A DNA stretch of 64,000 nucleotides from Planctomycetaceae bacterium (GTDB lineage: Bacteria; Planctomycetota; UBA1135; GCA-002686595): contig WYBT01000035.1 of the NCBI GenBank assembly GCA_011525785.1, forward strand, positions 62,001 through 126,000. The letters are read 5' to 3'. Shown here one piece after another: positions 20,256 to 64,000 of the stretch. Numbering within the stretch: the first letter of the stretch is position 1; every line of letters starts with the position of its first letter. Under the pieces are notes generated by a model. The model ran no database searches. It was not told where the DNA came from and saw only the letters and a program-made list of their open reading frames with translations. The position numbers were made by a program, and so were the translations under genes.

Positions 20256-20340
20256 GGCGGCCGGGTAGCGCGGCGCTGCGGCGCATTGCGTATGGCGCGC
20301 GGAAGCGCCGCGCACGACGGTGGGCGGCTTGGAGGACTCC

Positions 20341-21708
<1,368 letters not shown>

Positions 21709-21738
21709 TCGTACGGCGCCAGAGCAATCTGTCCCACG
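21709..21738 (+). repeat. Extra half-unit of the palindromic repeat
   Basis: A single arm with the GCCAGAGCAATCTGTCCCAC core directly follows the lyase stop codon, reading GTACGGC where the main element reads GTACGGT. It stands in direct orientation to the left arm of the complete element that begins at 21739. Confidence 0.7.
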
Positions 21739-21843
21739 CTGGTTGTACGGTGCCAGAGCAATCTGTCCCACGCCGCGCGACGCCGCGGGCGATCCGAACG
21801 CAACGGCGGCGTGGGACAGATTGCTCTGGCACCGTACAACCAG
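21739..21843. repeat. Palindromic dispersed repeat, complete copy A
   Basis: Two perfectly complementary arms of 37 nt (core GCCAGAGCAATCTGTCCCAC) flank about 31 nt of variable spacer. It fills the space between the convergent stops of the lyase gene and the vWA gene. The same arms occur at 50578-50686 and, cut by the window edge, at 63936-64000. No protein frame is credible in it. The structure resembles REP/BIME-type or small non-autonomous palindromic elements; a role as a bidirectional terminator is also possible. Confidence 0.85.
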
Positions 21844-21846
21844 CGC

Positions 21847-23931
21847 TCAGCGCGTCAGCGCACCTGCGCGACGCACCAGGTCGATGAACTCGCGCCGCCA
21901 ACCGCGTTCGTCGCGGCCCAGCGCTTCGAGCGCGAGCTGCTCGATCTGCGCGTAGGACAGCTCGCGCGTGTGCTCGGAGTCGCGCAGCTTCATCGCGAAG
22001 CCCGCCACCGCCGCCGCAAAGCGCGCGTCGAGCGGCGCTTCGCTCCAACTTGCCGCTGCGCTCGACACGGTCTTCTCGAGGAGCTGGCTCACGTCGCCAT
22101 CGGGCGCCTTGTAGCGCAGCTTCACGTGCAGCCACTCGTCGCCCCGCGCGGCCGGCGCTTCGTCGCGCGGCGTCTGGTAGCGCAGCTCGCCGACCTGCGG
22201 GAGCTCGAACGGCACGCCCACGGGCACGATCTCGTACAGCGCCGTCACCGTGTGCCCCGCGCCGATCTCGCCGGCGTCCTTGGTGTCGTCGGCGAAGTCC
22301 TGGTGCGCGAGCGCGCGGTTCTCGTAGCCGATCTGCCGCCAGGCCTGCACCCGCGCGGGATTGAACTCGATCTGGATCTTCACGTCCTTGGCGATCGTCT
22401 CGAGGGTGCCGCTGATCTGCTCCACGAGCACCTTGCGCGCTTCAGCGATCGAATCGATGTACGCGTAGGCGCCGTTGCCCTTGTCAGCGAGCTGCTCCAT
22501 CGAGGAGTCCTTCAAGTTGCCCGTGCCGAAGCCGAGCACGCTCAGGAACACGCCGCTCTTGCGCTCCTGTTCGATCAACTTCACGAGCTCGTCGCGGCTC
22601 GTCGTGCCGACGTTGAAGTCGCCGTCGGTGCACAGGAGCACGCGGTTCACGCCGCCTTCGATGAAGTGCTCGCGCGCGGTCTTGTAGGCGAGCGCGATGC
22701 CCGCGCCGCCGTTGGTCGAACCGCCCGACTCCAGGCGCTCGATCGCTTCGAGGATCGCGCCGCGCTCGCGGCCGCTGGTGGGCTCGAGCACCAGGCCTTC
22801 GCTGCCGGCGTAGACGACGATCGACACGCGGTCGCGCACGTCGAGCTGCTCGGTGAGCAGGCGCAGCGAGCGCTGCACCAGCGGCAGCTTGTCGGCGCTC
22901 GACATCGAGCCCGACACGTCGATCAGGAACACCAGGTGCGAGTCCTTGCGCTCCTGGGCGTGCACTTCGCGGCCCTTCAAGCCGACGCGCACGAGCTGGC
23001 GGCGCGCGTCCCACGGACAGGCGAACACGTCGGTCGTGACCGAGAACGGCGCCGCGCCGCTGGGCTGCGCGTAGTCGTAGTCGAAGTAGTTGACGAGCTC
23101 CTCGACGCGCACCGCGCCGGAGCTGGGCAGCGAGCCGCTCATCAAGTGGCGCCGCACGTTGGCGTAGCTCGCGGTGTCGACGTCGATCGAGAAGGTCGAG
23201 AGCGCCTCGTCGAGCGTGCGGCGGAAGATGTGCTCCGCGATCGAGTCGTACTCTTCGCTGCTTGTGCCGAACTGCTCGATCTCTCGGCGGCCGCCCCCGA
23301 CGCCGAGAATGAAGTCGCGCGCGCCGGCGGCCTCGATCGACGGTTCCGTGAGACTCGTGGCGGGTTGGTTCGCACCGGTCCCGACGTCCAAGTAGCGCCA
23401 TACGGGACCGCCCGCTGCCTCACCAGCCATCGTGTAGCCCAGCTCACGCAGCTTGGGCAGTTCATTCGAGCCCGGCGCGTTGAGTGCTTGCGACGGCCCA
23501 CGCCGCTCGATTTTGCTTGCTCCAGCGCCGTCCCGATAGAAGCGCGACTGCCAGGGCGTGATGGAAGACATCTTGTCCCAAGGCTGCGTCACGAGCAGCG
23601 TGCCGCCTGCGAAGGCCACCACGATGGCCGCGGCGAGCAGTGTCCGAACGACGCGCAAGCGATTGCCGGTCGAGGCCGTGGCCACGCGCTCGCCTCGCGC
23701 GTGCTCGACGATCGCCGCGCGCGCCGGCTCGTCCAAGCGCTCCGCAGTCGGCTCGGCGAACGCTCGCTCCACTTGCGCAACGGTCTCGCGCAGCCCCGCG
23801 ACGAACTCGCGCGCCGCGGCATCGCGCTGGAGCAGCGCTTCGACCGCGCGGCTCTCGTCCGCGTCCAACTCGCCCAACGCATACGCGCTCAAGCGCGCGT
23901 CGTCCGCATCGAAATCACTCTTGGCGACCAT
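21847..23931 (-). CDS. vWA-domain protein with anti-sigma-like head (YfbK-type)
   Basis: The 694-residue protein has three parts. The first about 75 residues (ARLSAYALGELDADESRAVEALL) look like the N-terminal sigma-binding helices of anti-sigma factors. A membrane segment follows at about 95-116. The exterior part carries a von Willebrand A domain with the metal-binding motif DVSGSMS near residue 333 and a C-terminal region (HTVTALYEIVPVG, LHVKLRYKAPDGD) as in YfbK/DUF3520 proteins. It starts 3 bp after the stop of the ECF sigma gene, after a GGGAGGG site, so the pair forms one operon. A role as the membrane-bound anti-sigma factor for that sigma is an inference. No zinc-binding HxxxCxxC motif is visible in the head. 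Confidence 0.85.
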   Translation of the reverse strand: MVAKSDFDADDARLSAYALGELDADESRAVEALLQRDAAAREFVAGLRETVAQVERAFAEPTAERLDEPARAAIVEHARGERVATASTGNRLRVVRTLLAAAIVVAFAGGTLLVTQPWDKMSSITPWQSRFYRDGAGASKIERRGPSQALNAPGSNELPKLRELGYTMAGEAAGGPVWRYLDVGTGANQPATSLTEPSIEAAGARDFILGVGGGRREIEQFGTSSEEYDSIAEHIFRRTLDEALSTFSIDVDTASYANVRRHLMSGSLPSSGAVRVEELVNYFDYDYAQPSGAAPFSVTTDVFACPWDARRQLVRVGLKGREVHAQERKDSHLVFLIDVSGSMSSADKLPLVQRSLRLLTEQLDVRDRVSIVVYAGSEGLVLEPTSGRERGAILEAIERLESGGSTNGGAGIALAYKTAREHFIEGGVNRVLLCTDGDFNVGTTSRDELVKLIEQERKSGVFLSVLGFGTGNLKDSSMEQLADKGNGAYAYIDSIAEARKVLVEQISGTLETIAKDVKIQIEFNPARVQAWRQIGYENRALAHQDFADDTKDAGEIGAGHTVTALYEIVPVGVPFELPQVGELRYQTPRDEAPAARGDEWLHVKLRYKAPDGDVSQLLEKTVSSAAASWSEAPLDARFAAAVAGFAMKLRDSEHTRELSYAQIEQLALEALGRDERGWRREFIDLVRRAGALTR

Positions 23932-50553: not shown

Positions 50554-50577
50554 GCTTGCGGCGCTCGCGCGCGGCGG

Positions 50578-50686
50578 CGTTGGTTGTACGGTGCCAGAGC
50601 AATCTGTCCCACGCCGCGCGACGCACCGGGCGTCCCGACCGCACCGGCGGCGTGGGACAGATTGCTCGGGCACCGTACAACCAACG
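50578..50686. repeat. Palindromic dispersed repeat, complete copy B
   Basis: Two arms of about 39 nt with one mismatched pair flank about 31 nt of spacer. The arms are nearly identical to copy A at 21739-21843, whereas the spacers differ at several positions. As in copy A, it lies between two convergent genes, here the HAD phosphatase and the secreted protein. Confidence 0.85.
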
Positions 50687-50704
50687 CGAGCTTCAACTCG
50701 CGAA

Positions 50705-63935: not shown

Positions 63936-64000
63936 TGGTTGTACCGTGCCAGAGCAATCTGTCCCACGCCGCCGTTGCTCACGGGCTGCCCGGAACTCTT
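63936..64000. repeat. Palindromic dispersed repeat, copy C (cut by window edge)
   Basis: One arm (63936-63971, GTACCGT instead of GTACGGT, otherwise the same core GCCAGAGCAATCTGTCCCAC) and 29 nt of spacer are present before the window ends. The second arm is expected just beyond the edge. It sits directly upstream of the DUF808 start codon, unlike copies A and B. Confidence 0.65.

Follow-up and report, generated by a model that had tools for sequence, protein, structure and literature searches.

A GTAC-tagged palindromic repeat family in Planctomycetota with arms resembling the ends of RAYT-type transposons

The window, the whole 64-kb stretch of DNA analysed here, holds two complete palindromes, a third that is truncated where the window stops, and a single additional arm. 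The features at these loci are as follows (positions in the window).

20320–21708, plus strand: beta-eliminating lyase (tryptophanase-like), neighbour of copy 1; its end is the start of the extra arm
21708–21739, plus strand: extra half-unit (one arm) in direct orientation, its first base being the final one of the stop codon upstream (repeat search, 94%; open reading frame end at 21708)
21737–21776, plus strand: copy 1, left arm, with the GTAC tag at 21745–21748 and the core at 21752–21771 (repeat and core search)
21777–21805, no strand: copy 1, spacer of 29 nt (repeat search)
21806–21845, minus strand: copy 1, right arm, with the core at 21811–21830 and the GTAC tag at 21834–21837 (repeat and core search)
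21847–23931, minus strand: VWA domain/YfbK-like protein, neighbour of copy 1, with its 3' end towards the element
50577–50687, no strand: copy 2, with 41-nt arms, 98% complementary, and a 29-nt spacer (repeat search)
63936–64000, plus strand: copy 3, with its left arm and a portion of its spacer; the site is also occupied in a sister genome (L220:14363)

Both complete palindromes have arms of 40–41 nt and a 29-nt spacer. The initial annotation had described copy 1 as a 105-bp element with 37-nt perfect arms; the palindrome is real, but its arms are slightly longer (40 nt, 100% complementary, 29 nt apart) and the whole measures 109 bp. The arm in direct orientation before it was recovered as well (94% identical to the next arm), as were the near-identical arms noted elsewhere, namely copy 2 (50577–50617 and 50647–50687) and copy 3, whose right core lies outside the window at G000:C29:126007–126026. 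The spacers had been said to differ, but they are not unrelated: their length is constant and they are recognisably similar to one another. Within the window, the arm core GCCAGAGCAATCTGTCCCAC gave six matches against 0.01 expected, and the 105-nt strand of copy 1 had a fold energy of -58.4 kcal/mol (z = -14.6). Palindromes of this kind lie far outside what chance would produce. An Rfam search of the window returned no family match.

We then counted the arm core across the window's genome (G000; a 6.8-Mb assembly in 63 contigs, about 91% complete), allowing up to two mismatches and using the reversed pattern as control. The count proposed by the initial annotation came to 104 cores, with 0 for the control, forming about 48 elements. 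Most cores were paired, plus then minus, at a spacing of 59 in 44 cases and of 58 in three, and additional arms had the same direction as the adjoining arm. The initial annotation would have been refuted had the window held the only copies, with none in relatives; kin families were instead found in the sister species and in other genera. G001, of the same genus, carries a sister family with core GCCAGAGCAATTTGTCYCAC, a spacing of 49 and a spacer that is often itself palindromic, together with collapsed 20-nt palindromes GTTGTACGGCGCCGTACAAC. The 14-nt arm head TACGGTGCCAGAGC had 66 copies in G000, 97 in G001, 60 in G006, 22 in G026 and 10 in G037 (control 0 in all five) and was absent from 111 of 121 genomes, and the core was absent from all 59 other relatives searched. 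Viral contigs yielded no match to the pattern, and a match in a Bacteroidetes contig (L185) was rejected as a chance coding match. The window's genome also contains a palindrome with the head TACGGTGCCAGAGC and a different arm tail, AAAGTTTCCACGTTAGC (L347/L385, G000:C7:44832–44927), a third subfamily there. Several contig breaks of this assembly fall at elements (L114/L116, at the end of C58 and the start of C61; L094/L105, at the ends of C28 and C36), and overlap together with the contiguous G001 loci L159 and L184 suggests joins of those contigs.

Covariation between arms was evaluated over 39 arm positions in 45 G000 and 61 G001 elements, with 2000 permutations. Arm mismatches were 0.96 within an element versus 2.97 between elements in G000, and 2.03 versus 6.48 in G001; 0 of 2000 permutations matched in either genome. 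Among more than 100 elements GTAC and GCCAGAGCAA were nearly invariant, the tag reading GTAC in 90 of 90 G000 arms, while variation fell on the outer stem and on positions -3 and -1, mostly on both arms at once. Position -8 in G001, for example, showed 23 double versus 4 single changes. In the majority of G000 copies the stem extends some 8 nt outward from GTAC before pairing is lost. G.T mismatches were as frequent as A.C mismatches (39 vs 38) and thus give no sign of RNA pairing. A single arm on its own folded no better than its shuffles (z of 0.35 and -1.13). The resulting map separates bases probably read by a protein from bases that would need pairing alone. Two elements, L108:4096 and L081:5689, have unique, non-consensus outer stems that take in a gene's stop codon on one side; the opposite side mirrors this sequence perfectly, as though an inverted copy of the flanking DNA had been made. 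The unique extension at L108:4096 is 11 nt long.

Comparison with G001 showed sites occupied in both species: L101:4088/L119:4026, L114 and L116/L159:5260, L094 and L105/L184:7326, L110:4021/L122:3985, and window copy 3/L220:14363. Other sites were empty or held remnants in one species, and several G000 elements were absent from the matching G001 place. The recent spread proposed in the initial annotation is therefore partly borne out, but several positions predate the divergence of the two species. At the shared sites the arms differ between species. The spacer is clearly homologous at some of them (L184). At others the copy in G001 has that genome's shorter type of spacer, which requires a past conversion or re-insertion. 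It would go too far to call concerted evolution universal, as the ATCTG core, the older form, persists in the G001 copy at the site of window copy 3. Alignments of empty sites were too diverged to define any target duplication, and inspection of the listed copies revealed no direct target repeats at element edges.

To place the elements relative to genes, we used a simple hexamer-based gene finder written for this analysis. The median distance to a gene's 3' end was 6 nt in G001 and 14.5 nt in G000, versus 48.5 and 30 nt to a 5' end; elements lie near genes on both sides because the gaps are short. The convergent intergenic setting reported for copy 1 is correct (the lyase ends at 21708 and the VWA/YfbK-like gene at 21847) but untypical of the family: a check of flanking-gene orientation showed no preference for convergent genes, the 44 G000 cases including 9 divergent and 7 convergent settings, like the background. 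No T-run of an intrinsic terminator followed the stem in the listed copies inspected.

As in the initial annotation, no transposase gene was seen beside the window copies, though a RAYT-like gene adjoins a copy elsewhere in the genome. Pfam Y1_Tnp matched one gene in G000; the single unlinked transposase that this model alone implied was corrected by the more specific NCBIfam model NF047646, which gave four matches in G000, with E-values of 1.4e-13 and 3.4e-13 for the RAYT-like genes at scores under the curated cut-off (51 vs 80 bits). One of these, RAYT-A (E 1.4e-13), which the Pfam model had missed, is a 331-aa RAYT-like HUH protein (L103:2956–3951, minus strand), and upstream of the gene, 69 nt away from its start, stands a family element (L103:4020–4121). 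The gene stands beside one complete dimer on one side, not between two arms, and we estimate the chance adjacency of a RAYT gene and a family copy at about 2% per RAYT gene. RAYT-A is 41–52% identical to related proteins of other genera. Eight aligned RAYT proteins have HFHLL and RYID (RYID..NP) motifs in common, with invariant HUH and Tyr columns, and a long C-terminal region of about 180 aa, in which the best helix-turn-helix match was weak (HTH_23, E 0.13). In G001, which has at least as many copies, the B-type RAYT alone was found (assembly 89% complete), and the place corresponding to that of RAYT-A lacks this gene. A direct repeat of about 85 bp around RAYT-A was considered as a target duplication, but a truncated paralogue is the better reading, since the neighbouring gene stands twice in tandem in the sister genome.

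The ends of related transposase genes connect more directly to the arms. RAYT-B of G000 lies between 29-nt inverted repeats, GGTACAGAGCCAGGCTCCCCCGCCAACTC. The RAYT of G006, a genome from another genus, lies between TGTTGAATACGGTGCCAGAGCACTTT ends that carry the head TACGGTGCCAGAGC as the family arms do, and about 30 dispersed dimers of its arms occur in G006. Together, these ends and dimers are the strongest evidence that the family's arms are transposon ends, and the proposal in the initial annotation of RAYT-mobilised elements gains support both from them and from the RAYT-like gene adjoining a G000 copy. Related RAYTs of five genera have inverted RTACSGWGYC ends, about 1.2 kb apart for several:

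G006: ATACGGTGCCAGAGCACTTT
G015: ATACGGAGTCAGGCTCC
G009 and G012: ATACGGAGTCGCACACC
G005: GTACGGTGTCGCACACC

Dispersed inverted dimers were found in G000, G001, G006, G026 and G037.

Several further loci bear on the related forms. The RAYT-B region (L031:758–1989, L133/L309) is 96% identical between the species, versus about 75–90% for much of the matched sequence. A contig end in G001 (C64:158690–158920, L253) carries tandem truncated 5' parts of RAYT-B, each beginning GGGTACAGAGCC, and L255 (G000:C54:251937–252033) is a palindromic element of the B type; the heads of its GTACGGAGCCAGGCTC arms match the RAYT-B gene ends. G037, of the same order, has 70 RAYT-like matches and palindromic elements with the head TACGGTGCCAGAGC and GAACGTACGG ends (L349, L383). 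Nested symmetric palindromes (L376 in G006:C74, L375, L327) form an element within an element with the outer stems still paired, reaching 355 bp in L376 and 100-nt arms in L327.

Very probably, then, the family consists of non-autonomous mobile hairpins, each made of two arms of a RAYT/TIRYT-type transposon set head to head round a short spacer. Alongside the observed architecture, copy number, covariation, RAYT linkage and shared and unshared sites, we infer binding, cutting, a single-strand intermediate, movement and the identity of the RAYT that serves this family. A replication fork would expose an element as a single strand, and this strand would fold up as a single long hairpin. Working in trans, a HUH tyrosine transposase of the RAYT type would read the GTAC tag and GCCAGAGCAA, with the other stem positions needing pairing alone, and would cut next to the tag; the strand would then be joined at another place, in most cases an intergenic one. 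Incomplete events would account for the extra arms and the truncated tandem units. A GGTTGTACGGCGCCGTACAACC scar would be a sign of activity.

A host function would be a different explanation: a long RNA hairpin at gene ends, acting as terminator or in mRNA protection, selected and secondarily spread. The short median distances to gene 3' ends (6 nt in G001, 14.5 nt in G000), the pairing kept by double changes and the sites retained in both species would suit it. It is nevertheless improbable, given the lack of an orientation preference in G000 (9 divergent, 7 convergent of 44), of T-runs following the stems of the listed copies and, with G.T and A.C mismatches equal (39, 38), of any sign of RNA pairing; the link to transposase ends would also be left unexplained. 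Slightly less probable again is that the elements are relics of dead mobile elements, their arms kept identical by template switching or conversion with no protein reading the sequence. That changes fall on both arms even in the unique-sequence outer stems (L108:4096, L081:5689), that collapsed palindromes GTTGTACGGCGCCGTACAAC occur in G001 and that arms of the sister species differ at shared sites all agree with it. Conversion of this kind does not account for GTAC and GCCAGAGCAA staying nearly invariant in more than 100 elements while -3 and -1 vary freely, nor for the copies at unshared sites or the same head on RAYT ends in another genus. The terminal inverted repeats and small size recall an ordinary MITE moved by a DDE transposase, the gene for which would have gone undetected, but the arms agree with the ends found on HUH RAYT genes and no direct target repeats were noticed at element edges, making this very unlikely.

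The mobile-hairpin reading places these elements in a new lineage of a known bacterial mobile repeat type, and their best class is a TIR-dimer family of TIRYT transposons that works like REPINs. In the work of Di Nocera et al. (2013; PMC3733652), long terminal inverted repeats flank RAYT-like genes (TIRYTs, TIRtrons), and the TIR families are moderately abundant and often form dimers; most TIRYT genes were placed in subclass 2.1, with longer proteins (PMC6006769). Shared with our elements are RAYT-like HUH proteins extended at the C-terminus, long inverted repeats that bear no relation to GTAG REPs, and dimers. A gene between inverted repeats that are family members, the mark of TIR dimers, was found for the G006 RAYT and for RAYT-B of G000. 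In contrast, the ends here read RTACSGWGYC rather than the reported GGGGWSAS, the elements occur in one order of Planctomycetota, RAYT-A lies beside one dimer, not between arms, and the C-terminal helix-turn-helix of subclass 2.1 is no more than weakly suggested (HTH_23, E 0.13).

REPINs, for which Bertels and Rainey (2011; PMC3116915) reported compensatory changes across the hairpin, are likewise inverted doublets with conserved ends, a looser spacer, fixed spacing, a mainly intergenic location, compensatory changes and a RAYT near a copy. They differ in carrying GTAG (GTRG) at the foot of the hairpin where our elements carry GTAC, in numbering hundreds of copies rather than about 48, and in that one arm alone forms no stable hairpin here. 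The REP/BIME-like character suggested in the initial annotation needs changing, the repeat unit being the inverted pair and TIR dimers being closer; strict REP/REPIN membership fails, and without GTAG tags or single-arm hairpins we do not file the family as REPIN. E. coli REP/BIME elements and TnpA-REP (PDB 4ER8; sequence similarity only E 0.023) share a tetranucleotide tag and a tyrosine transposase with HUH and YI..NP motifs, whereas GTAG and a bulged 20–40-nt hairpin per unit are lacking here.

The family bears on how REP-type palindromes arise and on whether RAYT proteins really move them, as one Planctomycetota order offers a transposase-bearing form and short dimers with the same ends, and two sister species offer shared sites with diverged arms. 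A tentative and rather doubtful extension is that GTAC-headed RAYTs differ in recognition from REP systems, reading GTAC-N-G-N-GCCAGAGCAA alone in a long, almost perfect stem and checking pairing elsewhere, and that insertion or replication copies flanking DNA inverted to the other side, so that palindromes would grow, nest (as at L108:4096, L376 and L327) and found new repeat families. In one RAYT system, a change from GTAG to GTAC moves cleavage to GA or GT (PMC8266576), and this guide rule gives a direct prediction of cut sites for the present GTAC elements. GGTT and GATC adjoin GTAC here, a testable coincidence with the rule and not evidence for it.
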